DNA from: Pseudosporangium ferrugineum
GTDB taxonomy: Bacteria; Actinomycetota; Actinomycetes; Mycobacteriales; Micromonosporaceae
Direction of reading: 5' to 3'
Assembly (NCBI RefSeq): GCF_003002065.1
Contig: NZ_PVZG01000001.1
Coordinates: forward strand, 1-64,000
DNA length: 64,000 nucleotides
In this document: in pieces, positions 8,996 to 32,667 of the stretch
How the letters are laid out: each line of letters opens with the position of its first letter
Position numbering within the stretch: position 1 is the stretch's first letter
The notes under the pieces: generated by a model
Told to the model about the DNA's origin: nothing
What the model saw: only the letters and a program-made list of their open reading frames with translations
Database searches by the model: none
Translations under genes and position numbers: made by a program

Positions 8996-9113
8996 GCCCA
9001 CTCCGAGACGGCCGGCGGCTGCGGCTGGAGAATCCGCCCGCCGCCGGCGGCGATGGCCGTATCGATCGCCGCGCCTCCGCCCTGCCGACTCCGGCGGCGC
9101 TACCGGCCGATGA

Positions 9114-9644
9114 GGCGTCCGCCCTGCCGGCTCCGGCGCCACGGCCGAGCTTGCGCGGGGGCTCTTTCAGACCCGGCCGGCGAGCGGGACCGCCGGCCAC
9201 TTCGCCGGCAAGGAGGAGATCGTCCGCTCCCTGTTCGCCCAGCGCGGCGACGAGGCGGACCGGCTCCTCGACTGGATCCGGTCCCAGCCCCCGACCGTGG
9301 ACCTGGTCAGGACGGCGGTCCTGCGGTGGGTGGAGTCGTTCTCGGGCGACAAGCTCCACGGCATCCGCTTCCTGTCGGCGAACCCGCTGCTCGTGCGCAC
9401 CCTGGCCCAGGACGGCAACCGCATCGGCACCACGCTGAGCACCCTGGTCGACGCCCTCGCCGCCCTCCTGCCGAATCCGGCCCCGGCGGACGTCCTGCAC
9501 CTGCGGATGGCCCTGCTCAGCATCAACGCGGCCGTCGAGGCGGCCGGCCCGGACACCTTCACGGACGACGACATCCTGGCCGCCGCCCACCACAACGCGA
9601 CGATCCTGATCGACGCCCTCCTCGCCCGATCAGCCACGCGCTGA
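9114..9644 (+). pseudogene. TetR-family regulator remnant lacking most of its HTH
   Basis: The frame is open from just after TGA 9111-9113. It reads ATAELARGLFQTRP, then GHFAGKEEIVRSLFAQRGDE and a normal TetR C-terminal ligand domain to TGA 9642-9644. In an intact TetR about 25 residues of helix-turn-helix separate AELF-like and HFAGKEE blocks; here that section is missing and no in-frame ATG/GTG exists before GTG 9297. Inferred: internal deletion plus loss of the start. A 115-residue product from GTG 9297 is possible but would not bind DNA. Confidence 0.65.
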
Positions 9645-9785
9645 GCGGGCAGCTCTCGCCGCCGCCCGACTGAGGGCGTCGCTCGCGTGCCCGCCGCCGA
9701 CCCATCCGCCCCGACCACCCCTCTCGGCCGCGCCTCGCGCGGGACAGCCGTGCCGGAGCGGCCGGACGGTCAGCGGGCCGGAGGT

Positions 9786-9872
9786 GGCGAGGTGTTCGAC
9801 GAGCAGCCGCGCGTCCGGCGGACGGTCAGCGGGTCGACGCCGGCGGCCAGGTCGCGTTCCCAGCCGGGGACG
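9786..9872. repeat. Degenerate inverted copy of an internal piece of the LAL gene
   Basis: This 87-bp stretch matches the reverse complement of 7085-7184 inside the LAL coding region. Long identical runs (GGCGAGGTGTTCGACGAGCA, then GGTCAGCGGGTCGAC, then the last part ending in CAGCCGGGGACG) are separated by a few substitutions and about 13 missing bases. It lies in the intergenic space 3' of the acyltransferase gene. It has no reading-frame role here. Confidence 0.85.
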
Positions 9873-9880
9873 GCCGACGG

Positions 9881-10648
9881 TCAGCGGACCCGCGGCCGTT
9901 TGCGGACCCGGGACATGTCCGCCGGCCGCGTGGTGTCCACGAAGTGGGGAAGCTCCGGCTCGTCCTCGCGCAACGGCACCAGCGTGTCCGCGATCGCCTG
10001 CACGATCCGGTCGGTCGCCCGCATGGCCTGCGCCCCCGCCGTACCGGTGAGCCCGGACAGGTCCACCGGCTCACCGAAGCGGATCTGCACCACCGGCCGC
10101 CGCCACATCGCCCTGAGCACCGACCGCACGATGTCCGTCGGCGACGCGTACGGCAGCACCGCATGCGAACCCCACTGCGCCACGGGGATCACCGGCGCAC
10201 CCGACATGGCCGCCATCCGCGCCACCCCGGTCTTGCCGCGCTCGGGCCACATCCACGGGTCCAGCCCGATCCGGCCCTCCGGGTACACCAGCACCACCGA
10301 CCCGGCCTTCAACGCCTCCGCCGCCGTCGGCAGCGCCTCGGCCGCCCGCGCGGTGTACCGGTCGACCCGCAGGTGCCCGGAAGCCCGCATCGCCCATCCC
10401 GCGATCGGCGCATCGAACAGCCCGCCGGTCGCCATGAACCGCGGCGCCACCCCCGCGATGCTGCACGCCGCCGTCATGAGGATCGGATCGACCGGGCTCA
10501 CATGGTTGGCAGCCAGAATCAACGGCCCCCGCCGCAGCTCCGCCGGCACCTCACCGGAGATCCGCAACCGGCAGATCAACGGCACCAGCACCCGCGAGAA
10601 CCGCAGAAGCACCCGCCACACCCGAGGCACCCGCCACGACGCATCCAT
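9881..10648 (-). CDS. 1-acyl-sn-glycerol-3-phosphate acyltransferase family (PlsC)
   Basis: 255 residues from ATG 10646-10648. Acyltransferase motif I is NHVSPVD (H49, D54), motif III is YPEGRIG at about 122-128, and the tail is basic. The N-terminal 30 residues form one hydrophobic, basic-flanked segment typical of a membrane-associated PlsC. Family role: transfer of an acyl chain to lysophosphatidic acid in phospholipid synthesis. Actinomycetes have many paralogues, some acting on other acceptors. It stands alone between repeats. Confidence 0.85.
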   Translation of the reverse strand: MDASWRVPRVWRVLLRFSRVLVPLICRLRISGEVPAELRRGPLILAANHVSPVDPILMTAACSIAGVAPRFMATGGLFDAPIAGWAMRASGHLRVDRYTARAAEALPTAAEALKAGSVVLVYPEGRIGLDPWMWPERGKTGVARMAAMSGAPVIPVAQWGSHAVLPYASPTDIVRSVLRAMWRRPVVQIRFGEPVDLSGLTGTAGAQAMRATDRIVQAIADTLVPLREDEPELPHFVDTTRPADMSRVRKRPRVR

Positions 10649-10895
10649 AAGTCCGCCATGATCGCACGCCCGGCCCTTCCCGGTGTCCCACCCCCGAACC
10701 CCGAGCCGGCCGAACTCCCACATCCCGCACCGCCGTGCGCCGCGCCCATGCCACAGCCGTCACGCCGCAGTCCGCCGCGCCCGTGTCGCAGTCCGTCACG
10801 CTGCAGTCTCCCGCAGTCCGTCACGCTGCAGTCTCCCGCGCCGCCGCGCCCGGGTCGCAGTCTCCCCGCGCCGCAGTCCGTCGCGCCCGCCGCCG
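10649..10895. repeat. Intergenic block with a 25-bp tandem repeat
   Basis: Between the acyltransferase start and the stop of the next minus-strand gene. Two perfect 25-bp copies lie at 10787-10811 and 10812-10836 (each starts CGCAGTCCGTCACGCTGCAG). Shorter variants of CGCAGTCCGTC occur on both sides from about 10765 to 10890. No gene is supported. The array is directly 3' of the gene at 10896-11861. Confidence 0.85.
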
Positions 10896-11861
10896 TCAGC
10901 CCGCGTCGCGTAACTCCTGCAGCCGCGCCTCTATCTCCGCCAGCTCCGCCCGCAGCCGTTCCGCCTGCTGCTCCGCCTCCGCGCGCTCCGCCGCCAGGAT
11001 CTGCTCCACCGCCTCCTGCACCCCCGGCACGTCGACCAGCGACACCATCCGCATGGCCTCCGCCGGCCGGATCACGTAGGGCTTCGCCAGCGCCTTCGCG
11101 CCCTGATTCGCCGCCACCGTCCACTCGCCGTCGGTGTAGGCCAGCGTCACCGTCAACCCCGGCGGCGGTTTCGGCTTGGCCACCCGGGCCGGCGCCTTCC
11201 GCGGAGCCGGAGCAGGAGCCGGCGCACCCGCCCCGTTCCCGCCAGCCCCGCCGTCCACCGCCGGGCCACCGCGCCCCGCCGCCGCAACACCCTGCTCTCC
11301 GCCCGGGGAACCCCCGTCGCCGCCCGCCCGCGAACCACCGGACCGCCCACCGCCGGAACCCGACCCCACCGCCACCGCCGCACCACTCCCACCCGAGGAA
11401 CCACCGACCGAACCACTCACCGAACCATCCGACGGGCCACCTGAAGAACCACCTGAAGAACCACCTGACGAACTGCCCGGAGGGCCACCTGAAGAACCAC
11501 CCGAGGAACCCGCCCGTCCACCCCGCGCGGCGACGATCGGCTTGTCGATCACAAACTCCGGCTCCGGCCGGGGCGGTGGCGCGGGCGGCGGGGGAGCCGC
11601 CTTGCGCGCGGCCGCGCCCTTCGGCGCCACCTGCAGATCACCGGGCGCGAACGGCAGCTCGTCGCGGCCGAACCGCACCACCACCCACTCGTCCGACTCC
11701 GCCGGATCGGTCAGCGCCACCACCTGACCCACCTGCCCGGCGATCTGCCCCGCCGACTCCGTGAACATCACGCGCGGCTTACGCCCGGCACCCAGCGCGT
11801 CGCCGATCACCCGCAACTCCTCGGGGCTCAGCCCGCGCACCCCGGTTCGCGCTGCCGCCAT
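10896..11861 (-). CDS. Actinobacterial hypothetical protein with Ser/Gly-rich linker (DUF6319-like)
   Basis: 321 residues in three parts. Residues 1-80 are a conserved-looking domain (LSPEELRVIGDALGAG, TESAGQIAGQVGQVVAL) that reminds me of DUF6319. Residues about 95-230 are disordered and made of SSGG, PPAP and Gly repeats. Residues 235-321 hold a second domain (TVTLAYTDGEWTVAA, KALAKPYVIRPAEAMRMV) and a C-terminal coiled coil rich in Ala, Glu and Arg. The linker is encoded by imperfect short DNA repeats. Function unknown; the KOW-like VGQVVAL patch could be a nucleic-acid contact, which is speculation. Confidence 0.7.
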   Translation of the reverse strand: MAAARTGVRGLSPEELRVIGDALGAGRKPRVMFTESAGQIAGQVGQVVALTDPAESDEWVVVRFGRDELPFAPGDLQVAPKGAAARKAAPPPPAPPPRPEPEFVIDKPIVAARGGRAGSSGGSSGGPPGSSSGGSSGGSSGGPSDGSVSGSVGGSSGGSGAAVAVGSGSGGGRSGGSRAGGDGGSPGGEQGVAAAGRGGPAVDGGAGGNGAGAPAPAPAPRKAPARVAKPKPPPGLTVTLAYTDGEWTVAANQGAKALAKPYVIRPAEAMRMVSLVDVPGVQEAVEQILAAERAEAEQQAERLRAELAEIEARLQELRDAG

Positions 11862-11930
11862 CGGTCACCCTCCCTCGAACGTGTGTTCCAACGTCGTCAG
11901 TTCTACCAGTACCCACCGACAAGAACCTCG

Positions 11931-12689
11931 TCAGCCCAGCCGGCCGGTCACCGGATCCCGATCCGTCACGCAGTACGACCGGCCGGCCGGGTCGCGCAGC
12001 GTCGTCCACGCCGCCTCGGTCCGCACCACCGCCGCACCGAGCTCGACATGGCGCCTGACCTCTGCATCCCGGTCGTCGGCCGCCACGTCGGGATGCATGC
12101 CGGACACCGGGCCGCCGATCCGCTGCAGCAGAAGACGCAACGGCATGCCGTCCGGGCGTACCAGAATCTCGAATTCGGGCCGGGAAGCCGGACGCCGGGG
12201 CCAACCCGTCACCGCCGCCCAGAAATCGGCCTCCGCCTCGAACACCGCACCCGGAATGTCCAGACACCACTGATCGACCAGGCTGCGCCCGCCCGGCCAC
12301 GCCGCCGGCACCGGCCGCACGACCTCGCCCTGCCACGACACCAGGCAGAACAGCAGGCCCGCCGGCGACCGCAGCACCGCCAGCCCGCCCTCCTCGTGCA
12401 CCACCACCGCACCGAGCCCCACCACCCGGCGCGCCTGCGCCGCCACCCGCTCCACGTGCAGATCCAGGTGGGCCCGCGCCGGGCCGTCACCCACCACCTG
12501 CACCCTCAGGTACGCGTCACCGCCGGCCGGAAGCAACGTGGCGAACTCGCCACCGGCCCCGCGCCGGGACGAGAGCCCCGACCCGGTGACGTCCCGCCAG
12601 AACTCCTCCGCCGCCCGGGACGGCGCATCGAGGAAGCCCGTCGTCCAGCGCACGAAAGTGTCAGACCCCGCCGATACGGTTCCCGCCAT
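11931..12689 (-). CDS. VOC-family (glyoxalase-like) two-domain protein
   Basis: 252 residues from ATG 12687-12689, chosen because homology-like sequence begins at VSAGSDTFVRWTTGFLDAP. Two vicinal-oxygen-chelate half-domains are visible, each ending in a typical strand (AVLRSPAGLLFCLV and TTLRDPAGRSYCVTDRDP). The family includes glyoxalases, dioxygenases and antibiotic-binding proteins. No metal-ligand set can be assigned with certainty by eye. It is a single gene with no clear operon partner. Confidence 0.75.
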   Translation of the reverse strand: MAGTVSAGSDTFVRWTTGFLDAPSRAAEEFWRDVTGSGLSSRRGAGGEFATLLPAGGDAYLRVQVVGDGPARAHLDLHVERVAAQARRVVGLGAVVVHEEGGLAVLRSPAGLLFCLVSWQGEVVRPVPAAWPGGRSLVDQWCLDIPGAVFEAEADFWAAVTGWPRRPASRPEFEILVRPDGMPLRLLLQRIGGPVSGMHPDVAADDRDAEVRRHVELGAAVVRTEAAWTTLRDPAGRSYCVTDRDPVTGRLG

Positions 12690-12724
12690 GACCGAGATCC
12701 TGCCCTGTCCGTCCCCGACGTCGC

Positions 12725-12884
12725 TCAGCGGGCGGCCTCCCGCAGCCTGCCCAGAAACCCCGACAGCAGCTCCAGCCCGGCGGGGGAGAGGGGCGGCACC
12801 CACCCGCGCCCCTACCTCGTCCTCGAAGACGGCTTCCGCCCCGGCCAGCGACGTGCGCCGGTCCTCGGGATTCGACCGGCGCAC
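12725..12884 (-). pseudogene. MarR-family regulator fragment with a frameshift
   Basis: Read on the minus strand, GTG 12882-12884 opens VRRSNPEDRRTSLAGAEAVF, the wing of a MarR winged helix. After GARVGAA the frame must slip by one base to continue as LSPAGLELLSGFLGRLREAA and stop at TGA 12725-12727. That tail is a normal MarR dimerisation helix. The recognition helix is not found upstream. The fragment lies about 190 bases from the candidate dif site. Confidence 0.6.
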
Positions 12885-13072
12885 ACAATGACCCGCCGCC
12901 TCGACCGGCCGGCCGCGTCCGGACGAGACGGGCCAGCTCGGCCCGCGCGTCTCAGGCGGCCCGAGTCGGCGTCACCGCGCGCTGCAGCCCGCCGGTGGAC
13001 GACTCGGCGCCGGGAGGCCCTACGGCCATACCGCAGGCGGCCGGCGTTCCGGGCTCGAACGGCAGAATTCAG

Positions 13073-13100
13073 ATGGTCGATAATTGACATTATGTCAACC
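13073..13100. other. dif: Candidate chromosomal dif site (XerC/XerD recombination site)
   Basis: 28 bp: XerC-side arm ATGGTCGATAA, six-base centre TTGACA, XerD-side arm TTATGTCAACC. From memory the actinobacterial dif consensus is TTSRCCGATAA, TVNACA, TTATGTCAAGT. This stretch agrees at 23 of 28 positions, including CGATAAT and the unbroken ACATTATGTCAA. The 15-bp TTGACAT-T-ATGTCAA part is also a perfect palindrome. A Xer-like recombinase starts about 490 bases to the right. Alternative: an operator or a promoter with -35 TTGACA. Confidence 0.6.
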
Positions 13101-13286
13101 TGAGCGCGGAACGGGGTGGTGAGCGGTGAGGTTCGGTGCGGCGGACCCGGTTACGGCCGATGCCACGGTACGTCGAAACCGCCGGCGTCCTCCGGAGTGT
13201 CGAATTTGTCGGCACTGAGGCTGCTGTCGGCGCGCCAACTCCGCATACCTCGGCACGCACCCGCACCGCCGGATCCACGCCACGGC

Positions 13287-13396
13287 ACCCGTGCTCTTGC
13301 TCGTGCTCGACCGGCGCGCCAGCGTACCCGCGCCGGCGGTACCCGCACTCGTTGCTCCTGCTCGACCAGCGCGCCTGGCGTACCCGCGCCGGCGGA
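13287..13396. repeat. Imperfect ~55-bp tandem duplication between dif candidate and recombinase
   Basis: 13287-13340 and 13341-13396 are two copies sharing CTGCTCGACC/GTGCTCGACC, GCGCGCC and GCGTACCCGCGCCGGCGG. The unit borders also carry CCACGCCACGGC twice (13275 and 13402 areas). Open frames exist here on both strands but have no recognisable protein, no ribosome sites and Arg/Pro-rich composition, so 13101-13575 is treated as non-coding. Confidence 0.75.
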
Positions 13397-13575
13397 TCGT
13401 CCACGCCACGGCGGCCGTGGCCCCACGTTGGCTGCGGCTCTTTGCCTCGGCCCCACGGGCTCGGCCTGGCAGCCGATGCCGGCACGCGGGACGGCATCGC
13501 TGGTGCGCCAAGTCGCGTCGAATTCGGGATGCTCGTGGATCGCGGACGGTTCGGGGTGTCGGTGAATGGGTCTTT

Positions 13576-13599
13576 CCTGCATAATATTCCTTATGCAGG
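13576..13599. promoter_or_regulatory. Perfect palindrome at the recombinase start: promoter/operator or Xer-like site
   Basis: CCTGCATAA, six bases TATTCC, TTATGCAGG: 9-bp perfect arms. The second arm contains the ATG (13593) of the recombinase. CATAAT at 13580-13585 lies 7 bases before that ATG, which fits a -10 box of a leaderless transcript. The geometry CATAA-N6-TTATG is also the core of dif-type sites. Both roles may coincide, giving autorepression by the recombinase. Confidence 0.6.
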
Positions 13600-14546
13600 A
13601 CAATCAAGACATTCCGGTCGAGGCGCTTGTGGAGGAGTTTCTCGGGGCGCGGGCCGTTCGGAAGCCGTCGGAGCACACGCTGCTCGCCTATCGGCGGGAC
13701 CTGCATGCTGTGCTGCGGCTGATCGGTGAGAATGTCACTCTGGGTGACCTCTCCCCCCGTGTCCTGCGGTCGGCGTTTGCGCGGTTCGCGGCCGGGCGGG
13801 CTCCTGCCTCGGTGTATCGGGCCTGGTCGAGCTGGAATTCGTTCTTCGGGTTCCTGGTGGTGGACGGCGTGGTGGCCGGGAATCCGATGCCCGCGGTCGG
13901 TAAGCCTCGGATGGCGACCCCCTCCCCTAAGCCGCTGCGTGGTGAGGACACGCCCGAGCAGTTGCTCGCGGCCGTGAACCAGGTCGACGAGCGGCAGCGG
14001 GATCCGTGGCCCGAGCGGGATGTGGCCGTGCTGGCGCTTGCCCTGTGTGCCGGGTTGCGGCTGTCGGAGTTGCTGGCGTTGCGGGCCGGGTCCGTGATGG
14101 GGCGGCCGGGTGAGCGGCGGGTCGAGGTGGCGGGCAAGGGTGGGCGGCCGCGTGCGGTGCCGATCGAGCCCGAGCTCGATGCCGTCGTGGAGCGGTACGT
14201 GGAGAGCCGCCGGCTGCGGTTCGGGCGGGTGCGGCCGGATGATCCGCTGCTGGTGGATCGGCGGGGTGAGCCGTTGCGGCGGGGCGGGCTGCAGTATCTG
14301 GTGCAGTCGTGTTTCCGGCGGGCCGGGGTGTCGGATCGGGTGCCGCGAGGTGCGCAGTTGCACGCGTTGCGGCATACGTTCGCGACCCGGCTGGCCGAGG
14401 ACGGGGCGAACGCTTCGGAGATCATGCGGTTGCTGGGGCACGCGTCGTTGACGACGTCGCAGGGCTACATCGAGGTGACGGCGGCGCAGCAGCGGGCGGC
14501 GGTGCGCGCGAACCGAACGAACCGCGCGCTGGGTCGGCTGCAGTGA
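13593..14546 (+). CDS. Xer-like tyrosine recombinase
   Basis: 317 residues from ATG 13593 (ATG 13566 is an upstream alternative). An N-terminal SAM-like core-binding domain (about 8-108) precedes the catalytic domain with the full set R156 (AGLRLSE), K182 (GKGGRPR), H257-x-x-R260 (HALRHTFATR), H283 (LGHASLTTSQ) and nucleophile Y292. Length and motif spacing match XerC/XerD rather than long phage integrases. No excisionase, att repeats or phage genes are nearby. Its neighbour is the dif candidate, so chromosome-dimer resolution or a Xer-using mobile element are the two options. Confidence 0.85.
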   Translation: MQDNQDIPVEALVEEFLGARAVRKPSEHTLLAYRRDLHAVLRLIGENVTLGDLSPRVLRSAFARFAAGRAPASVYRAWSSWNSFFGFLVVDGVVAGNPMPAVGKPRMATPSPKPLRGEDTPEQLLAAVNQVDERQRDPWPERDVAVLALALCAGLRLSELLALRAGSVMGRPGERRVEVAGKGGRPRAVPIEPELDAVVERYVESRRLRFGRVRPDDPLLVDRRGEPLRRGGLQYLVQSCFRRAGVSDRVPRGAQLHALRHTFATRLAEDGANASEIMRLLGHASLTTSQGYIEVTAAQQRAAVRANRTNRALGRLQ

Positions 14547-14600
14547 GAGCGGCCTGACGGACCGCGCGCTGCGACAGTCGCAGTGAGAGCGGCACGGCCG
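14521..14600. repeat. Tandem duplication of the recombinase 3' end including its stop codon
   Basis: 14521-14560 and 14561-14600 are two 40-bp copies: ACCGCGCGCT and CAGTGAGAGCGGC are identical in both. The first copy contains the genuine TGA at 14544-14546; the second repeats it. Further right to 14681 are short repeats of AGAGCCGGG with AAAGC. The kinase gene ends at 14682 on the other strand, so this is a convergent 3'-3' gap. Confidence 0.8.
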
Positions 14601-14681
14601 GAGAGCCGCCGGCGAAAGCAGGGAGCCGGGAAAGCACAGAGCCGGGGAAAGCGCGGAGCCGGGCGGGAGAGGACGGCGTGG

Positions 14682-16289
14682 TCAGGGGGCGGTGAGGGCC
14701 TGGTGGATCGCGACGAGCAGGTCCGCCCGGGTGAACGGCTTCTCCAGCAGCGTGATCGTCGGGTCGAGGGTGCCGTGGCTGGCCAGGACCGGCGTCGCGT
14801 AGCCGGACATGTACAGCACGCGCAGGTCGGGGCGTACGGCCGCGACCTGTTTGGCGAGGGCCGTGCCGAGCATGGTCGGCATGACCACGTCGGTGAGCAG
14901 GAGGTCGATCCGGCCGGGGTGGTGCTGGGCGAGGTCGATCGCCGCCGTCACGTCGTCCGGGGCGAGGACCTGGTAGCCGCTGGTGGTCAGGGTCCGGCGG
15001 CAGATGTGGCGCAGGGCGGGTTCGTCCTCGACGAGCAGGACCGTCCTGCCGTGGCCGTCGAGGCCGTCGGTCGGGGGTGGGCCCGCGGCGACGGTGGTGG
15101 GCTGGCGGTTGGTGATGGGCAGCAGGACGCTGATGGTGGTGCCCATGCCCTCCTCGGAGTGGATGTTGACCGTGCCGCCGGCGCCGGTGACGATGCCGTA
15201 GACCATGGCCAGGCCGAGGCCGGTCCCCTGGCCCTGGGGTTTGGTGGTGAAGAAGGGTTCGAAGACGCGGTCGATGACGTCGCGGGGCATGCCGGTGCCG
15301 GTGTCGCTGACGCGCAGGCGGGCGTATTCGCCGGCGGGGACCGGCGGGCCCTGGACGCGGTAGTCGCTGTCGACGAGGACGCTGCCGGTCTCGATGGTGA
15401 GGGTGCCGCCGGAGGGCATCGCGTCGCGGGCGTTGACGGCGAGGTTGACCAGGACCTGTTCGAGCTGGCCGGGGTCGGCGAGGACGGGGCCGCAGTCGGC
15501 GAGGTGGACGTTGAGGGTGATGTGTTCGCCGATGGAGCGGCGGAGCATGTCCTCGACGCCGCGGACGACCTGGGTGAGTTCGAGGACCTGGGGGCGGGTG
15601 ACTTCCTGGCGGGCGAAGGCGAGCAGTTGGCGGGTGAGGTCGCCGCCGCGGCGGGCGGCGCGCAGGATCTGCTGGATGTCGCGGTGCACCTCGGTCCAGG
15701 CCGGGATGCCGGGGCGGCCGTCGGAGGTGGCGGTGTCGCTGATGAACTCGGCGTAGTTGATGATGACGGCGAGCAGGTTGTTGAAGTCGTGGGCGACTCC
15801 CCCGGCGAGTTGGCCGAGGCTTTCGATGCGCTGGGTGCGCTGGAGTTGTTCCTGGAGTTTGGCGCGGTCGGCGTCCTCGCGCAGGCGGGCGCGTTCGGCC
15901 TCGGCGACGAGGCGGTCGCTGATGTCGCGTACGGCGGCGGAGACGATCAGGCCGGTGTCGGTGTGCAGGCCGGAGAGGCTGATCTCGGCGGGGAAGACGG
16001 TGCCGTCCTTGCGTTTGGCGCGCAGGGGCTGGCCGCTGCCCATGGCGCGGTGCACGGGGTGGTCGGCGTAGCGGCGGCGCAGGCCGCGGTGGGCGGTGGT
16101 GAGGTCGTCGGGGACGAGGACCTCGATGGGTTCGCCGAGCAGTTCGCCGCGGGTGTAGCCGAAGAGTCGTTCGGCCTGGGTGTTGACGAAGACGATCCGG
16201 CCGGTGGCGTTGGTGCCGACGACCGCGTCCGGGGCGGCGTCGAGGAGTTGTTCGAACACCCGGTTGGAGACGGTGTCGATGTCGAGCAT
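14682..16289 (-). CDS. PAS-domain hybrid histidine kinase with C-terminal receiver
   Basis: 535 residues from ATG 16287-16289. PAS domain about 10-125 ([16 protein letters not shown]), a short coiled coil, HisKA with the phospho-acceptor H167 in [14 protein letters not shown], HATPase with N box [13 protein letters not shown] and G boxes ([16 protein letters not shown]), then a receiver domain from about 415 with acidic VEDE and the phospho-acceptor Asp in LLTDVVMP (about 468). No transmembrane segment, so a cytosolic sensor. The HDFNN motif is typical of kinases that act together with an attached receiver. No separate response regulator is adjacent. Confidence 0.9.
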
Positions 16290-16385
16290 GTCGGCCGCCA
16301 ATCCGGTGCTTCGGTCGCCTGGTGCCGTCCCTATTCGTAGCGCATGGTGGCGGGCTGGGAGGGTGGTTCGGTGGTCTTGCACCGG

Positions 16386-16422
16386 TGGCCGGTCACCCTG
16401 TGCGGGGTGACCGGCCATTTTT
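16386..16422. terminator. 13-bp perfect hairpin between hydrolase and kinase genes
   Basis: Stem TGGCCGGTCACCC (16386-16398) pairs with 16405-16417 around a 6-base loop, followed on the plus strand by five T. Both flanking genes are on the minus strand, where the hairpin directly follows the hydrolase stop but has the T run on the wrong side. It most likely ends or slows the hydrolase transcript. Confidence 0.65.
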
Positions 16423-16434
16423 GGCGTACGTGTG

Positions 16435-17256
16435 TCAGCTGTTGAGGAAGGTGAGCAGTGCCTCGTTGAACTCGGTGGGGTGGGAGGCGTTGATGCCGTG
16501 GGGCCCGTTCTCGATGACGACGAGCTGGGCGCCGGGGATGCTCTCGGCGGTGCGGCGGCCGCTGTTCTCGATGGGGACGATGGCGTCGCTGTCACCGTGG
16601 ATGACCAGGGTGGGGATGCTGATCTTGGCGAGGTCGCCGCGGAAGTCGGTGCGGCCGAAGGCGGTGATGCAGTCGAGGGTGCCCTTGGCGGAGGCGACGT
16701 GGGCGAGTTCCTGGGCGTAGCGGACCTGGTTGTCGCTCACCTTGAGGGTGCCGCCGGCGGTGAAGAAGTTCTGGGCGAAGCCGTCGACGAAGGCGATGCG
16801 GTCGGCGATGACGCCGTCCTGGAAGGCCTTGATGGTGGCGTCGTCGAGGGCGCCGTCGGGGTTGTCGTCGCTCTTGTAGAGGTACGGCGGGACGGCGCCG
16901 GCGAAGACGGCCTTGCTGATCCGGGCGCTGCCGTAGGTGCCGAGGTAGCGGGCCACCTCTCCCCCGCCCATGGAGAAGCCGACGAGGGTGACGCCGGTGA
17001 GGTCGAGCTGGGTGAGCAGGGCGTCGAGGTCGGCGGCGAAGGTGTCGTAGTCGTAGCCGGTCCAGGGCTGGCTGCTCTTGCCGAAGCCGCGGCGGTCGTA
17101 CGTGATGACCCGCTTGCCGTCGGCGACGAGGGCCGGGATCTGGGCTTCCCAGCTGCGGCCGGACAGCGGCCAGCCGTGGATGAGGACGACGGGGTCGCCG
17201 GTGCCGAAGTCCTCGTAGTAGAGGTCGACTCCGGTGCTGACGGTGGCGTAGGGCAT
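16435..17256 (-). CDS. Alpha/beta hydrolase (non-haem chloroperoxidase/esterase type)
   Basis: 273 residues. Nucleophile S95 in GFSMGGGE, acid D224 in HGDSDAIVP, base H253 in GPHGINASH; oxyanion region HGWPLSGRSW at 27-36. These are the signatures of the cofactor-free haloperoxidase/aryl esterase group, which hydrolyses esters and can carry out perhydrolysis. Cytosolic, no signal peptide. It is 35 bases downstream of ohr on the same strand, so it may be part of the peroxide-stress unit ohrR-ohr-hydrolase. Confidence 0.85.
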   Translation of the reverse strand: MPYATVSTGVDLYYEDFGTGDPVVLIHGWPLSGRSWEAQIPALVADGKRVITYDRRGFGKSSQPWTGYDYDTFAADLDALLTQLDLTGVTLVGFSMGGGEVARYLGTYGSARISKAVFAGAVPPYLYKSDDNPDGALDDATIKAFQDGVIADRIAFVDGFAQNFFTAGGTLKVSDNQVRYAQELAHVASAKGTLDCITAFGRTDFRGDLAKISIPTLVIHGDSDAIVPIENSGRRTAESIPGAQLVVIENGPHGINASHPTEFNEALLTFLNS

Positions 17257-17291
17257 GACGCTTCCTTTCGATCGAGGGGTGGTGGTGTTTC

Positions 17292-17711
17292 TCAGGCGAG
17301 GGTGAGGGTGACGTCGACGTTGCCGCGGGTGGCGTTGCTGTACGGGCAGACCTGGTGGGCGGCGTCGAGCAGCTCCCTGGCGGTGGCCTCGTCGACGCTG
17401 GGGAGTTCGGCCTCGATGGCGATGGTGAGGCCGAAGCCGCCCTTGTCGTCGGGGCCGATGCCGACGTCGACGGTGACGGCGACGTCGGTGAGGGTGATCT
17501 TCCGGCCGCGGGCCACGGTCTTGAGGGCGCCGTGGAAGCAGGCGGCGTAGCCGGTGGCGAAGAGCTGTTCGGGGTTGGTGAGGTGGCCGCCGGGGCCGCC
17601 CATCTCCTTGGGGACGGCGAGGTCGAGGTCGAGCACGCCGTCGCTGGAGCGGCTGTGTCCGCTGCGGCCGTCGCCGGTGGCGGTGGCGGAGGCGGTGTAG
17701 ATGGCAGGCAT
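17292..17711 (-). CDS. ohr: Organic hydroperoxide resistance protein Ohr
   Basis: 139 residues of the OsmC/Ohr fold. Both redox cysteines are in place: C58 in GYAACFHGAL and C122 in VCPYSNATRGN. Ohr reduces fatty-acid and other organic hydroperoxides with electrons from lipoylated proteins. It follows ohrR on the same strand with a 12-base gap, the usual arrangement for the regulator and its target. Confidence 0.92.
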   Translation of the reverse strand: MPAIYTASATATGDGRSGHSRSSDGVLDLDLAVPKEMGGPGGHLTNPEQLFATGYAACFHGALKTVARGRKITLTDVAVTVDVGIGPDDKGGFGLTIAIEAELPSVDEATARELLDAAHQVCPYSNATRGNVDVTLTLA

Positions 17712-17723
17712 CGGGTTCTCCTG

Positions 17724-18158
17724 TCAGATGGTGCGGGTTGCCGCGCCGCGGATGCGGCCGAGCAGGTGTTGCAGGGTCTGGAACTCCTCGGCGCTGAGGT
17801 CGAGGGCGCAGGCCAGCCGTTCGGGCAGGTCGGCGACGCGGTGTTCGAGGTCGGTGCCGGCGTCGGTGGGGCTGATCCAGACGACGCGTTCGTCGTGGGT
17901 GCCGCGTTCGCGGCGGATGAGGCCCTGGTGTTCGAGGCGTTTGAGCAGGGGCGAGAGGGTGCCGCTGTCGAGGCGCAGGGCGGCGCCGAGGTCGCGGACG
18001 GTGATGCGGCCGCGGTGCCAGATGACGCGTAGGGCGGCGTATTGCGGGTAAGTGATGCCGAGGGCGTCGAGAGCGGGCCGGTAGAGGCCGGTCATGGCCC
18101 GTGAGGCTGCGTAGAGCTCGAAGCAGATCATCTGCTCGAGGCCGGTGCTCTCTTCCAT
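17724..18158 (-). CDS. ohrR: MarR-family peroxide sensor OhrR
   Basis: 144 residues from ATG 18156-18158. The N-terminal block EQMICFELYAASRAM carries the reactive cysteine C12 at the position of the sensing Cys of OhrR. The winged helix follows (GRITVRDLGAALRLDSGTLSPLLKRLE and RRERGTHDERVVWI). Known: OhrR represses ohr until its Cys is oxidised. The direct repeats in the upstream gap are its probable operator, controlling ohrR-ohr and perhaps the divergent acetyltransferase. Confidence 0.9.
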   Translation of the reverse strand: MEESTGLEQMICFELYAASRAMTGLYRPALDALGITYPQYAALRVIWHRGRITVRDLGAALRLDSGTLSPLLKRLEHQGLIRRERGTHDERVVWISPTDAGTDLEHRVADLPERLACALDLSAEEFQTLQHLLGRIRGAATRTI

Positions 18159-18171
18159 GCCGAGAACGCTA

Positions 18172-18194
18172 GTGCGCAATTGAGTTGTGCGCAA
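18172..18194. promoter_or_regulatory. Putative OhrR operator, direct repeats
   Basis: GTGCGCAA occurs at 18172-18179 and again at 18187-18194, 15 bases apart, with CAATTGAGTTG between and overlapping. The pair lies 13 bases upstream of the ohrR start. Operator assignment rests on position and repetition only. Confidence 0.5.
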
Positions 18195-18217
18195 CCTATG
18201 TGTGCCCGGCGCCACAC

Positions 18218-18229
18218 TAGGATCGGGAC
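18218..18229 (+). promoter_or_regulatory. -10 box of a leaderless acetyltransferase transcript
   Basis: TAGGAT at 18218-18223 is followed by six bases and the GTG start 18230. TAGGAT is a frequent actinobacterial -10 hexamer. The spacing means transcription would begin at or next to the start codon, and no ribosome site is present. Confidence 0.5.
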
Positions 18230-18718
18230 GTGATCACCTTCGTGCGACTCCCGGTGGCCGCCATGCGGGCCCTGATCGACGGCGACGTGGCCCGCGCCGG
18301 CGAGCTCGCCGGCGCTCCCCTGACCGAGTGGCTGCGCAGCGAGAAGTGGCTGTGGGAGATCCGGGTACGCCAGATCGAGCAGGACCCCGCGTCCGAGGAC
18401 TGGGTGGCCCGCGCGGCGTTCGCCGGCGGCCACCTCGTCGGGCACGGCGGCTTCCACGCCCCACCGGACGCCGAGGGCCGCGTCGAGGTCGGTTACTCGG
18501 TCGATCCGGCGTACCGGAGACGGGGTTTCGCCAAGGCGATGCTCGGCGAGCTGATCCGGCGCGCCGAGGCCGACCCGCGGGTCAAGGCGGTGCGGGCCAG
18601 CATCCGTCCGGACAACACGGCCTCGCTCGCCACCATCGCCGGCTTCGGCTTCGAGAAGATCGGCGAGCAGTGGGACGAGGAGGACGGCCTGGAGATCGTC
18701 TACGAGCGGCCGGCCTGA
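18230..18718 (+). CDS. GNAT-family N-acetyltransferase
   Basis: 162 residues from GTG 18230. The acetyl-CoA binding motif A is YSVDPAYRRRGFAKAML (about 85-101: R/Q-x-x-G-x-A form RRRGFA) followed by the asparagine-containing motif B (IRPDNTASLATIAGFGFEKIGE). This is the RimJ/RimL-like subgroup that acetylates N-termini, small amines or antibiotics; the substrate cannot be read from sequence. It is divergent from ohrR and overlaps the next minus-strand gene at the 3' end by 19 bases. Confidence 0.85.
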   Translation: MITFVRLPVAAMRALIDGDVARAGELAGAPLTEWLRSEKWLWEIRVRQIEQDPASEDWVARAAFAGGHLVGHGGFHAPPDAEGRVEVGYSVDPAYRRRGFAKAMLGELIRRAEADPRVKAVRASIRPDNTASLATIAGFGFEKIGEQWDEEDGLEIVYERPA

Positions 18719-19497
18719 GCGGGGTCGAGGTGCACCACGAGCGGGCGGTGGTCGGAGACGGCGACGGCCGGGGTGCGGACCTGCACGACCGGGCCGAGGC
18801 GGGCGCCGCCACGCGGGTCGGCGAGGATGTGGTCGAGCTGGGCGCGCGGCGCCGGGCTCGGGTACGTCGGCCGCCGCGCGAGGCTGCGCCAGCCGGTGAA
18901 GGCGCGCACCGGGCCGGCGGGCAGGTTCAGGTCGCCGAGCAGCACCCTCGGCGCGGGCAGGGCGCGCAGGGCCCGGACGGCGGCCCGCAGCTGGCGCAGG
19001 TTCCAGCCCGGCACGAACGACAGGTGGGTGGTGGCGACCGTCATCGGCCCGCCCGGCGCGTCGATGACGGCGGCGATCAGCACCCGCGGCTCGTCCTTGA
19101 GCATCAGCAGGCCGCCGTCGGGGCCGGGGATCCAGACCGGCGAGCGTACGGGCGCCGCCGGCAGCGGGGTGATCTGCCAGCGCGCCACCGGGTAGCGGCT
19201 GACCAGGGCGATCCCGTACAGCGGATGGACGTTGTCGGCCTCGGAGCGCCAGGGCCGCCAGGTCTCGCCGGGGGTGCCGGCGACGGCCGCGGCGAAGCGG
19301 TGGGCGGGGGCGCCGAGGGCCTCCGCGGCGATGGCGGTGAGGTCGAGGTGGCCGCTGCGGGGCTGGGCGCGGTCGACCTCCTGCAGGCCGAGGACGTCGG
19401 CGTCGAGGTCGGCGACGGCGGTCGCCACCCGCTCGGCGTGTACGTTGCCGTCGGAGAGGGACCTGCCGTGCAGCAGGTTGAAGGTGGCCAGGCGCAC
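18700..19497 (-). CDS. Endonuclease/exonuclease/phosphatase (EEP) family protein
   Basis: 265 residues. EEP motifs are present in order: FNLLHG at 6-11, LQEVDRAQ near 38-45 (metal-binding Glu), TTHLSF, GDLNLPAG and the C-terminal VSDHRPLVV with the catalytic Asp-His. No signal peptide, so cytosolic. The family cleaves phosphodiesters in nucleic acids, phospholipids or inositol phosphates. The C-terminus converges on and overlaps the acetyltransferase gene. Confidence 0.82.
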   Translation of the reverse strand: MRLATFNLLHGRSLSDGNVHAERVATAVADLDADVLGLQEVDRAQPRSGHLDLTAIAAEALGAPAHRFAAAVAGTPGETWRPWRSEADNVHPLYGIALVSRYPVARWQITPLPAAPVRSPVWIPGPDGGLLMLKDEPRVLIAAVIDAPGGPMTVATTHLSFVPGWNLRQLRAAVRALRALPAPRVLLGDLNLPAGPVRAFTGWRSLARRPTYPSPAPRAQLDHILADPRGGARLGPVVQVRTPAVAVSDHRPLVVHLDPAQAGRS

Positions 19498-19533
19498 GGG
19501 ACAAGACCTTATCGAGGTACGCGGGGAGGTGCT

Positions 19534-19620
19534 GTGTTCAAAGCGGTGTGCTGTGCGGCGTCGGTGTTCCTGCTGATCGGGACGGCGGGGATCTGGCTGC
19601 GGAGGCGCCGGGGCCGGTAG
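19534..19620 (+). CDS. 28-residue single-span membrane peptide
   Basis: GTG 19534 follows GGGGAGG by five bases. It encodes a peptide with one hydrophobic helix (residues 4-20, including FLLIGTAGIW) and a strongly basic tail LRRRRGR, ending at TAG 19618-19620. The positive-inside pattern predicts the C-terminus in the cytosol. It lies 15 bases before the TauE-family exporter, so it could be a leader or a small partner of it. No family recognised. Confidence 0.5.
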   Translation: MFKAVCCAASVFLLIGTAGIWLRRRRGR

Positions 19621-19635
19621 TCCATTCTGTCAGGC

Positions 19636-20406
19636 GTGGATGCGTTCTCGGTCGTTACTCTGCTGGGTGCGGCGACGGCGGCGGGCTGGGTCGACGCGGT
19701 GGTCGGCGGCGGTGGCCTGCTGCTGCTCCCGGCGTTGCTGATCGCCGCGCCGGGGCTGCCGCTGGCCACCGCGCTGGGCACCAACAAGCTGGCCGCGGTG
19801 GCGGGCACGAGCACGGCGGCTTTCACGTACGCGCGGCGCACGAAGCTGGACTGGCGGGTGGCCGGGCCGGCGGCGGGGCTGGCGGTGGTGGTCTCCGGGC
19901 TGGGTGCGCTGCTGGCCGGGGTGGTGCCGGCGGCGGCGTACCGGCCGGTGGTGCTCGGCGTGCTGGTGGCGGTGGCGCTGTTCGTGACGCTGCGCCCGGC
20001 GATGGGCCTGGTGGCGGACCCGCTCAAGCGCACCCCGGCGCGCACGGTGGCGGTGATCGCGGTCGCCGGCGGGCTGATCGCGGCGTACGACGGGCTGATC
20101 GGCCCCGGTACCGGCACGTTCCTGGTGCTGGCGTTCACCACCGTCGTGGGCGCGGACTTCGTGCACGGCTCGGCCATGGCGAAGATCGTGAACACGGGTA
20201 CGAACCTGGGCGCGCTCGCGGTGTTCGGCGCCACCGGGCACGTGCACTGGCAGCTGGGCGCGGCGATGGCGGTGTGCAACATCGGCGGGGCGGTGCTCGG
20301 TGCCCGGATGGCGCTGCGCCGCGGCTCCGGCTTCGTCCGCGTGGTGCTGCTGGTGGTCGTGCTCGCCCTGATCGTGAAGCTGGGGATAGATCAGTTCCGC
20401 GCCTGA
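19636..20406 (+). CDS. TauE/SafE-family anion exporter
   Basis: 256 residues with about eight hydrophobic helices and two pseudo-repeats; GTNKLAAVAGTSTAAF at about 54-69 and GPGTGTFLVLAFTTVVGADF at about 157-176 are typical of the TauE/SafE (DUF81) family. Members move sulfite, sulfoacetate or related anions across the membrane. Start GTG 19636. It is followed after 21 bases by a UPF0303-type gene on the same strand. Confidence 0.88.
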   Translation: MDAFSVVTLLGAATAAGWVDAVVGGGGLLLLPALLIAAPGLPLATALGTNKLAAVAGTSTAAFTYARRTKLDWRVAGPAAGLAVVVSGLGALLAGVVPAAAYRPVVLGVLVAVALFVTLRPAMGLVADPLKRTPARTVAVIAVAGGLIAAYDGLIGPGTGTFLVLAFTTVVGADFVHGSAMAKIVNTGTNLGALAVFGATGHVHWQLGAAMAVCNIGGAVLGARMALRRGSGFVRVVLLVVVLALIVKLGIDQFRA

Positions 20407-29684: not shown

Positions 29685-30611
29685 ATGGACCCGCACGATC
29701 GGATCGCCGCCCTCGTCGCCCAGGCCGGCTACGGCACCGGCGACGCCGTCGTGGCCGGGCTACGGCGGGGCACCGATCCGCCGGTCATCGTGGCCCAGGG
29801 AATCCCGGCCGACACGGTTCTCTACACCGCGTCGCTGTCCAAGCAGGTCACGGCCGCCTGCGCGGCGCTGCTCGTCACCCGGGGCCGGCTGGACGCCGAG
29901 TCGGCCCTGGGTGAGTGGATGCCCGAGCTGCCGGCCTGGGCCGACGGCATCCGGGTGCGGCACCTGATCCACCACACCAGCGGGCTGCCCGAGGGCGTCG
30001 AATTCGACGAACTGCACGCGGCCGGGCTCGACCGCACCTCCGCCGGCATCATCCAGGCACTCAGCCGCACCGACCGGCTCATGACCGCACCCGGCACCAC
30101 CTTCCGATACTGCAATTCCGGGTACGTGTGCCTGGCCGCCGTCGTCGAACGCGCCGCGGGCCGGCCCCTCCCCGACTTCGCACGGGAGCAGGTGTTCGAG
30201 CCGCTCGGGATGCCCGCCACCCGCTTCTGGCCCGGCCCGCAACCCCATCCCCCGGGCGCCGCACCGACCGGCGCGGGGTACCCGGCGCCGTTGTCGCTCG
30301 GCGACGGCGGAATGTGGTCGACCGCCCCGGACCTGCTGCGCTGGAACGACGCGATGTCCCGCGACGAGCTGGGCGTCGCGGCACTCGTCCAGTCGCCGGG
30401 GGAACTCGGCGACTACGCCTGGGGGATCGACGTCCGGACGTACGCGGGCACCCGGGTCTACCGGCACGGCGGCCTGTGGGCCGGGCTGAGCGCGCAACTC
30501 GTCCGCATCCCCGGCGCCGGCGGGTTCGTCGTGCTCGCCCTCGACATCGACGAGGACCGTACGGCAGGGCTGGCCGGAGCCCTGATCGCGGACCTACTTC
30601 CCGGCGCGTAG
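29685..30611 (+). CDS. Serine hydrolase of the beta-lactamase / PBP4-like family
   Basis: 308 residues. SxxK is S50-L-S-K53, the YxN motif is Y142-C-N144 (FRYCNSGYV), and the third motif is HGG in YRHGGLWAG. These define the class C beta-lactamase-like (family S12) hydrolases: esterases, D-aminopeptidases or penicillin-binding enzymes. No signal peptide is visible, so a cytosolic esterase or peptidase is more likely than an antibiotic-resistance enzyme. The 3' end overlaps the convergent ArsR fusion gene. Confidence 0.85.
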   Translation: MDPHDRIAALVAQAGYGTGDAVVAGLRRGTDPPVIVAQGIPADTVLYTASLSKQVTAACAALLVTRGRLDAESALGEWMPELPAWADGIRVRHLIHHTSGLPEGVEFDELHAAGLDRTSAGIIQALSRTDRLMTAPGTTFRYCNSGYVCLAAVVERAAGRPLPDFAREQVFEPLGMPATRFWPGPQPHPPGAAPTGAGYPAPLSLGDGGMWSTAPDLLRWNDAMSRDELGVAALVQSPGELGDYAWGIDVRTYAGTRVYRHGGLWAGLSAQLVRIPGAGGFVVLALDIDEDRTAGLAGALIADLLPGA

Positions 30612-31379
30612 CCCGGCGTGCATCTCCCACGGTGCCTGTGGCAGCACGCTGCCGGTCTCCAGCAGGGACTTGAGGTTCGCCATCACCGCGGGCCACCCCG
30701 CCGAGACGGCCTCGACGTCCTCGTCGGACGCCAGGTTCACGTGCGTGACGGTCAGCCGGACGATGTCGCCGTAGGGCTCGATGAGGAACGTGACCGTGGA
30801 GGCGTCGGGCCCGGCCGCGGCGTCCACCTCGCCGAACGTCATGACCAGGCGCCGCGGCGGGTCGACCTCAATCACCACCCCGCCGGCGTCGGCGATGCCG
30901 GAACCGTCGGTGCGCCGATGCTCCCAGCGGGATCCGGGCCTCCAGTCGGAAACGTTGCGGTGTCCCCAGTACGCACCGGTCAGGTCGGCGTCGGTCAGCG
31001 CCTCCCAGACCCGTTCCGGGGTGGCGTGGATGTAGGTCACGTACACGTAGGTGGGCTTGGGGGTGCTCATGTGCGGCTCCTCTGCGTTTCGCCGGATCTC
31101 GTCGAGGACGCCCAGCCGCGGCTCCTCGAACGGGGCGATCCATCGCTGCTGCAACTCACGGATGGGGACAGGGTTGAGGTAGTGCCACTTCTCGCGGCCG
31201 TGGCGGACGACGCTGACCAGGTTGGCGTCCTGGAGCACGCCCAGGTGCTGGGTGGCGGACTGCCGGGTCATGGCCAGCCGCGCGCAGAGCCGGCTCAGGG
31301 TCTGGCCGTCCTCGTGGCGCAGGCTGTCGAGCAACTGCCGGCGGGTCGGATCGGCGAGCGCCCGGAACACGTCGTCCAT
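30594..31379 (-). CDS. ArsR-type HTH fused to an SRPBCC (AHSA1) domain
   Basis: 261 residues. Residues 1-100 are an ArsR winged helix (FRALADPTRRQLLDSLRHEDGQTLSRLC, TRQSATQHLGVLQDANLV) without the CxC metal site. After EEPHMSTPKP a full AHSA1/SRPBCC domain begins (YVYVTYIHATPERVWEAL to the end). In many actinomycetes these are two adjacent genes; here the single frame joins them, and Met at the junction might also serve as an internal start. The SRPBCC pocket probably binds a hydrophobic ligand. A large operator palindrome lies five bases before ATG. Confidence 0.85.
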   Translation of the reverse strand: MDDVFRALADPTRRQLLDSLRHEDGQTLSRLCARLAMTRQSATQHLGVLQDANLVSVVRHGREKWHYLNPVPIRELQQRWIAPFEEPRLGVLDEIRRNAEEPHMSTPKPTYVYVTYIHATPERVWEALTDADLTGAYWGHRNVSDWRPGSRWEHRRTDGSGIADAGGVVIEVDPPRRLVMTFGEVDAAAGPDASTVTFLIEPYGDIVRLTVTHVNLASDEDVEAVSAGWPAVMANLKSLLETGSVLPQAPWEMHAGLRAGK

Positions 31380-31383
31380 GACG

Positions 31384-31416
31384 CATTATGCAGGCAGCCG
31401 CCTGCATAATGTCAAT
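31384..31416 (-). promoter_or_regulatory. Operator-promoter of the ArsR-SRPBCC gene
   Basis: CATTATGCAGGC (31384-31395), four bases, GCCTGCATAATG (31400-31411): a perfect 12-bp inverted repeat. On the minus strand TTGACA (31411-31416) and CATAAT sit 19 bases apart, with CATAAT five bases before the ATG, so the promoter is inside the operator and the message nearly leaderless. The repressor is probably the ArsR fusion itself. Confidence 0.7.
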
Positions 31417-31650: not shown

Positions 31651-31680
31651 GCTACACCATAACTGTCATTATGGTGTAGC
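31651..31680. promoter_or_regulatory. 12-bp-arm palindromic operator between TetR remnant and NmrA gene
   Basis: GCTACACCATAA, six bases CTGTCA, TTATGGTGTAGC: perfect arms. The position between a (decayed) TetR gene and a divergent reductase gene is classic for a TetR operator controlling both. It also has the CATAA-N6-TTATG geometry of dif-type sites, but the context favours an operator. Confidence 0.7.
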
Positions 31681-31830: not shown

Positions 31831-32667
31831 ATGATCGTTATTACCGGGGCCACCGGCGCGCTCAACGGCGCTACCGTCGGTCATCTGCTCGGGCTCGTGC
31901 CCGCCACTGACCTCGCCGTCGTGGCGCGCGACGTCAGTAAGGCGCAGCATTTCGCCGAGCTCGGGGTCGCCGTGCGCCACGGCGACTACGCCGACCCCCG
32001 CTCCCTGCCGGACGCGTTCGCCGGCGCCGATCAGCTGTTGCTCGTGTCGTCGAACGATCCGGGTGCCGACGCGGTGAGCCTGCACCGGGCGGCGATCGAT
32101 GCGGCCGTCACCGCCGGCGTCGGGCGGATCCTCTACACGAGTCATCAGAACGCCGATCCGGCCTCGCCCTTCAAGCCGGGCCGGGACCATGCCGCGACCG
32201 AGCGGCTGCTCGCCGGGTCGGGGGTCGCCTGGACGGCGCTGCGCAACGGTTTCTACCTGCACAGCATCGACTGGCTGGCGGGGCCGTGGCGGGAGACCGG
32301 TGTCATCACGGTGCCGGGGGACGGGCCGGTGTCGTGGACGGCGCGGGACGACGCCGCCGAGGCCGCCGCGCTCATCGTCGCGTCCGGCGGCGGGTACGAC
32401 GGTCCGGTGACGCTCACCGCGGGCGAGGCGCCGACGTTCGGTGTCCTCGCCCGGATCGCGTCCGAGGTCACCGGCCGCACGATCACGCTGGAGGTCGTGG
32501 GCGACGAGGAGTGGCTGGCGGCCCAGAGCACGCCGGAGCCGCTTGCGCGCTTCACGCTCGGCTTCTACCAGGCGGCGCGGCGCGGGGACTTCGCCGGTGT
32601 CGATCCGCTGCTCGGCAAGCTTCTCGGCCGGGAACCGCGGACGGTGCGGGAGCAGCTCGCCGCCTAG
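31831..32667 (+). CDS. NmrA/SDR-family NAD(P)-binding oxidoreductase
   Basis: 278 residues with the N-terminal dinucleotide motif GATGALNG at 6-13, then VVARDVSKAQHFAELGV and LYTSHQNADP. The sequence is closest to the NmrA-like, atypical SDR group that includes azoreductase-like and quinone-reductase proteins (QorB type). There is no YxxxK catalytic pair, as usual for the group. An AACACCTGGGGGAGC ribosome region precedes ATG 31831. It was probably under the TetR operator at 31651-31680. Confidence 0.82.
   Translation: MIVITGATGALNGATVGHLLGLVPATDLAVVARDVSKAQHFAELGVAVRHGDYADPRSLPDAFAGADQLLLVSSNDPGADAVSLHRAAIDAAVTAGVGRILYTSHQNADPASPFKPGRDHAATERLLAGSGVAWTALRNGFYLHSIDWLAGPWRETGVITVPGDGPVSWTARDDAAEAAALIVASGGGYDGPVTLTAGEAPTFGVLARIASEVTGRTITLEVVGDEEWLAAQSTPEPLARFTLGFYQAARRGDFAGVDPLLGKLLGREPRTVREQLAA

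Follow-up and report, generated by a model that had tools for sequence, protein, structure and literature searches.

The Locus

The window, a stretch of 64,000 nucleotides at the start of contig NZ_PVZG01000001.1 of the Pseudosporangium ferrugineum assembly GCF_003002065.1, contains a site of the dif type, the gene of a tyrosine recombinase, here called XerX, and a Xer-like palindrome, here called difX (Table 1). About 0.5 kb separates dif from the XerX gene and the palindrome, which overlaps both a −10-like CATAAT and the XerX ATG; the open reading frame that encloses the gene begins at 13566. A dif site was to be expected, and the gene and palindrome next to it, which the initial annotation did not mention, are the more interesting part of the locus.

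Table 1. Positions of the dif Site, the Recombinase Gene and the Palindrome in the Window
Feature	Position	Strand	Description
dif site	13073..13100	+	Arm ATGGTCGATAA, centre TTGACA, arm TTATGTCAACC
Third Xer-type tyrosine recombinase, XerX, 317 aa	13593..14546	+	Assigned from domains, catalytic residues and tree
Palindrome, difX	13574..13601		TTCCTGCATAA-TATTCC-TTATGCAGGAC; proposed cognate site of XerX

The dif Site and the Replication Terminus

The 28-mer ATGGTCGATAATTGACATTATGTCAACC, which the initial annotation had proposed as the chromosomal dif, is present with the letters given there and has the build of such a site (28 bp, 11-6-11, actinobacterial core). The core CGATAA-N6-TTATGTCAA occurs with 0 mismatches, and allowing up to 3 mismatches brought no other match in the window (chance expectation, 0.01). 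From the known polarity of dif sites, we take ATGGTCGATAA to be the XerC-side arm and TTATGTCAACC the XerD-side arm; between the two arms, 4 of 11 positions are identical. The exact core is present once in the draft assembly (8,651,745 bases, 92 contigs), the copy number that the initial annotation expected for the 28-mer, and the seven further matches each carry 3 mismatches. Aligned with published sites, the 28-mer is identical at 22 of 28 positions to dif of Actinoplanes sp. SE50/110 and at 20 of 28 to that of Frankia alni (sequences from the accessible parts of PMC3364876 and PMC3025954, respectively). The figure of 23 of 28 in the initial annotation, given against a consensus, was not reproduced. 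Of 67 genomes that represent the genus, this one among them, 46 have the exact core, once in 45 and twice in G049, where the second copy has 2 mismatches to a stricter dif pattern; at up to 2 mismatches, this stricter pattern matches 201 of 250 genomes of the family.

Two kinds of departure were seen among relatives. Seven loci from Paractinoplanes and allies (L222, L225, L226, L227, L231, L238 and L253) combine a diverged XerC-side arm in dif (CGTTAA, CGAGAA) with an inexact palindrome; in L224 the XerC-side arm has likewise diverged, yet the palindrome core is exact. In genera g12 and g17 of the family, nothing matches the third recombinase strongly, and dif is missing at the 2-mismatch limit apart from a single such match in G199.

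Among 34 family genomes searched for dnaA, 18 chromosomes have dif and dnaA on one contig with a known dif position and an exact length, and in all 18 dif lies 0.470–0.499 of the circle from dnaA (median 0.487); the draft described here, G070, G113 and G250 were left out of these distances. Twelve further family chromosomes, 11 of them with rounded lengths, give 0.471–0.499. In f19, a family of another order, the distance is 0.455–0.480 in 5 of 5 chromosomes (G485 and G425 as single contigs; G520, G637 and G476 measured on the main contig), and dif of SE50/110 is described as lying almost opposite oriC (PMC3364876, accessible text). The GC skew of the contig that carries the site (C1, 844 kb, all but 13 kb of it on one side of dif) is flat, with no usable switch, and therefore placement of the site at the replication terminus, as the initial annotation had it, rests on the relatives. 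The lack of a skew switch and the division of the assembly into 92 contigs would fit a chance or decayed dif-like sequence with the true terminus elsewhere; we consider this highly improbable in view of the single exact core in the draft, the recurrence of core and neighbouring gene in the genus, and the 18 of 18 relatives whose dif faces dnaA across the circle. The site is almost certainly the chromosomal dif, predicted to be used by the canonical XerC and XerD of the genome.

A Third Xer-Type Recombinase

XerX has the Pfam Phage_integrase domain and an N-terminal SAM-like domain; it is a simple tyrosine recombinase with a core-binding and a catalytic domain, the catalytic residues, and no arm-binding domain. 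Residues Arg156, Lys182, His257, Arg260, His283 and Tyr292 are invariant among 22 aligned orthologues, and the closest solved relative is XerD (1a0p; E 2.4e-30). The protein evolves under purifying selection, with a median dN/dS of 0.15 and a largest value of 0.31 (55 pairs, 11 sequences).

We considered and rejected an assignment of XerX as the host XerC or XerD. Its NCBIfam scores, 166 bits for XerC and 152 bits for XerD, are far below the equivalog cut-offs (335 and 330 bits, respectively), and canonical genes are present elsewhere in the genome, xerC on contig C3 and xerD on contig C31, in neighbourhoods that, by eye, we take to be the usual ones. The products of these genes score 305 of 335 bits (XerC) and 327 of 330 bits (XerD), both slightly below the cut-offs. 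A maximum likelihood tree of 86 rows places the dif-linked proteins together with the related plasmid proteins on a single branch (100/99), and XerC (100/99) and XerD (97/94) on branches of their own, although the tree program warned that long branches meet at this point and that the bootstrap was unsettled. By scores and phylogeny, XerX is a third Xer recombinase, neither XerC nor XerD.

Linkage of the Recombinase Gene to dif

Among the 80 best-matching of 385 loci from named relatives (e.g. Actinoplanes, Couchioplanes and Micromonospora), all 80 have dif (up to 2 mismatches) upstream of the XerX gene on the same strand, at 291–2679 bp (median 546). A class-wide search of 394 genomes at E ≤1e-60 found an XerX-like protein in 33: 3 of the own family, 26 of f19, 1 of f3 and 3 of f2. 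Of the 26 gene-bearing f19 genomes, 19 have a recognisable dif, always on the contig of the gene and 0.68–7.59 kb from it; in the remaining 7, a search that allowed up to 2 mismatches found none. Two f19 genomes, G485 and G591, have an additional 2-mismatch dif match elsewhere. The gap between dif and gene is 0.35 kb in the f3 genome, and in the three f2 genomes the two are on different contigs. Of the 15 f19 loci examined, 14 have dif oriented opposite to the gene, so that it is their proximity, and not their arrangement, that is conserved.

A Xer-Like Palindrome Beside dif

The difX palindrome has arms that are complementary at 10 of 11 positions around a 6-base centre. Its core, TGCATAA-N6-TTATGCA, is present exactly in 143 of 250 family genomes, one copy each, whereas the reversed control had no match in the same 250. 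The exact core accompanies the gene: among the 167 family genomes in which the gene is matched strongly (E <1e-80), 140 have the core, versus 3 of the 83 others. These three exceptions are G176, G218 and G230, in the last of which the gene would overrun the contig start. Conversely, the exact core is missing from 27 of the 167 gene-bearing genomes, including 13 of the 14 from genera g5, g8, g13, g27, g35 and g40. In the named loci (best 80 of 385) the core is exact in 70 and matches at 12 or more of its 14 positions in all 80, and across 107 distinct palindromes the outer two arm bases covary between the arms, to a degree that 0 of 1000 shuffles reached for either base. Three gene-less genomes (L149–L151) showed no Xer-like palindrome up to 2.5 kb from dif.

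Outside the family, we retrieved 20 regions, each at most 20 kb long (18 from f19, one from f3, one from f2). All 16 that bear dif (15 f19, 1 f3) have the palindrome 283–951 bp from dif (300–951 bp in f19), with the recombinase gene 0.3–7.6 kb from dif in the same loci. In L301 and L313 (f19) and L315 (f2) the palindrome is present and dif is absent from the fetched region; L312 (f19) has the gene, with neither dif nor palindrome in the region. In L305, L308 and L297 (f19), either opposite-strand genes lie between palindrome and gene or the palindrome is downstream of the gene, according to crude gene calls, so the palindrome cannot be the promoter of the gene there. As a weak test, the frames that start from the palindrome ATG were measured in the 17 f19 loci with such an ATG: both are shorter than 60 aa in 4 loci, whereas one or both exceed that length in the remaining loci, the longest reaching 1135 aa.

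These observations bear on an alternative in which the palindrome is solely an autoregulatory operator, and XerX acts at dif itself, assisting XerC or XerD or standing in for one of them under certain conditions. Such a role would agree with the overlap of the palindrome with the −10-like box and ATG in Micromonosporaceae, with the location of five plasmid palindromes (see below) directly upstream of either a recombinase gene or a small gene that precedes one, and with the retention of the gene near dif in two orders. Moreover, the inner arm of the palindrome, CATAA, is identical to that of the XerD-side arm of dif, and seven of eight named loci with a changed XerC-side arm (CGTTAA, CGAGAA, CGTCAA) are without the exact palindrome, L224 being the exception. 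In contrast, the palindrome of the other order holds its distance to dif and not to the gene, the L305, L308 and L297 layouts (crude gene calls) are incompatible with a promoter position, and a 6-base centre flanked by 10–11-base arms has the dimensions of a Xer recombination site. The loci of the other order thus weaken the proposal that the palindrome is merely the promoter region of the recombinase gene, and we regard the operator-only explanation as less likely than a recombination site, though as its main competitor.

Two perfect 11-6-11 palindromes of operator-like appearance are present elsewhere in the window (31384–31411 and 31652–31679), between an ArsR-like gene (30594–31379, minus strand) and a plus-strand gene that starts at 31831, both identified by eye. 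The second of these, at what appears to be an ordinary operator, contains ATAA-N6-TTAT.

Plasmid and Phage Relatives

Relatives of XerX are encoded on 59 plasmid records, mostly from Mycobacterium and Rhodococcus, with 36.9–42.5% identity among the 40 matches listed. Nine of the plasmids, all circular, were fetched; five have an 11-6-11 palindrome complementary at 10 or more of 11 positions less than 1 kb upstream of the gene, whereas base shuffling predicts 0.07 per locus. The arm sequences of these palindromes are different ones. Because L457–L459 encode closely related proteins and have nearly one palindrome in common, the five represent three distinct cases. The other four plasmids have no palindrome even at 8 of 11 positions (6-base centre, TAA/TTA-type inner ends).

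Five phage records match the XerX protein at ~30% identity, positions 9000–20000 of the window have no similarity to phage DNA at megablast sensitivity, and PHROG integrase families match XerX. Three proviral contigs from IMG/VR (L371–L373) end right after the recombinase gene, with dif and palindrome inside in their normal order; the provirus boundaries are perhaps drawn too wide, as this normal order suggests, or the contigs are perhaps prophages near the terminus.

XerX might on these grounds be a stable remnant of an integrative element that entered at dif, as IMEX-like elements do, with no role in chromosome resolution. Its simple tyrosine recombinase architecture, its matches to PHROG integrase families and the three proviral contigs that stop just past its gene would all suit such an origin. 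However, dif is not duplicated at element ends (one copy in the draft), the region from 9000 to 20000 is free of phage DNA similarity at the sensitivity of megablast, and the five phage protein matches are only ~30% identical. Purifying selection on XerX, the constant order and orientation in 80 of 80 loci (best 80 of 385), and the normal order of dif and palindrome in the proviral contigs themselves also argue against a remnant, which we judge to be distinctly improbable.

A Fourth Xer-Like Gene and Another Palindrome

A fourth Xer-like recombinase gene lies outside the window (G000:C19:125607–126443; L080/L120), its product scoring 167 bits to NF001399; no Xer-like palindrome was found around it. 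Putative counterparts, assigned by score alone (145–171 bits), lie at 4.8–65 kb from dif wherever both could be placed (8 family genomes), and this extends to G128 and G151, which are without the dif-linked gene. In G405, which has no recognisable dif, the counterpart is ~0.39 Mb from the third Xer gene.

A different palindrome, CCRGACAGAA-N6-TTCTGTCYGG, noted at L301, L313 and L480–L487 among other places, is present at up to 2 mismatches in 83 of 200 f19 genomes, mostly as a single copy. It occurs in 6 of the 7 f19 genomes that have the third Xer and no dif at 2 mismatches, versus 0 of the 17 dif-bearing genomes searched for both. In G405 and G512 it is 0.43–0.48 kb from the TGCATAA palindrome, and of 7 regions retrieved, 5 (L480–L484) have Xer-like genes close to it. 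Two of nine contig starts checked for dnaA carry it (G770 and G748), and on these chromosomes the CCRGACAGAA palindrome lies at 0.511 and 0.499 of the chromosome, respectively. It is possibly an undescribed dif.

Discussion

The XerCD/dif part of the locus resembles that of other Actinobacteria, such as Frankia alni and Actinoplanes SE50/110, in its 28-bp site, its common core and the presence of canonical xerC and xerD. Unlike in the accessible accounts of dif in those two organisms, which mention no linked recombinase (PMC3025954, PMC3364876), a third Xer gene and a second, palindromic site here adjoin dif. No report of a dif-linked third Xer in Actinobacteria was found in the literature searched, from which most subscription papers were absent.

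Single-recombinase Xer systems are known, and the accessible texts of PMC5357621 and PMC9765430 describe XerS, XerH, XerA and XerL. The XerS/difSL system of streptococci and lactococci is similar in that the recombinase gene is directly beside the chromosomal resolution site (PMC5357621, accessible text), but there the recombinase is the only one and the site has an 11-bp centre, whereas here XerC, XerD and dif are present too and the palindrome has a 6-bp centre. In XerH/difH, in XerA and in the XerL/dif of Legionellales, a single recombinase likewise acts at one site (PMC9765430, PMC5357621, accessible text), and the Coxiella XerL gene is plasmid borne beside a plasmid site (PMC9765430, accessible part), which resembles the plasmid relatives of XerX. 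These recombinases are described as serving alone, in contrast to the coexistence with XerC and XerD seen here; the likeness is one of description. With regard to what defines a module of the XerS/XerH/XerL kind, the linkage of the gene to a symmetric site is present, the cognate status of the site is inferred, and XerX is not the sole Xer of its host. The annotated ‘tyrosine-type recombinase/integrase’ proteins of circular Mycolicibacterium and Rhodococcus plasmids share the XerX branch of the tree, and 5 of the 9 retrieved are accompanied by a palindrome, but they differ from XerX in sequence (36.9–42.5% identity, from 40 of 59 records) and in the arms of their palindromes. In G258 (f2), too, the gene is on a contig other than that of dif.

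Sequence comparison establishes that there is a dif site with a third recombinase gene and a palindrome linked to it, that all three are conserved across two orders, and that related pairs exist on plasmids. From these, we propose that XerX and its own 11-6-11 palindrome may form a self-contained second Xer module ~0.5 kb from dif, an extra single-recombinase system to which we give an even chance and which is perhaps another dimer-resolution system. XerX would bind the palindrome as a homodimer and recombine it between sister chromosomes at the terminus, in addition to XerCD acting at dif. In Micromonosporaceae, binding at the palindrome would also repress the XerX gene itself and so couple occupancy of the site to the supply of the enzyme; autorepression is proposed because the palindrome covers the −10-like box and the start codon there. 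The same placement at the gene start counts against a second module, as it is one that an operator would share. Also counting against it are the operator-like palindromes of similar build elsewhere in the window, the four plasmid relatives with no palindrome, the 27 of 167 gene-bearing family genomes in which the exact core is missing, and the f19 regions L312, L301 and L313.

More tentatively, and with somewhat less confidence than in the module itself, many mycelial actinobacteria may combine XerCD/dif at the terminus with a dedicated third recombinase whose own near-perfect palindrome usually lies within 1 kb of dif. This additional system may serve another division mode, such as the multi-genome septation of sporulation, and palindromic sites may have replaced dif in a related lineage that has no recognisable dif. 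A third Xer recombinase and a unique palindrome held beside dif in two actinobacterial orders depart from the usual view that a chromosome has a single Xer system, and raise the question of whether one chromosome uses two neighbouring resolution sites, and when. The locus also points to a portable, possibly self-sufficient pair of recombinase and site from large actinobacterial replicons.
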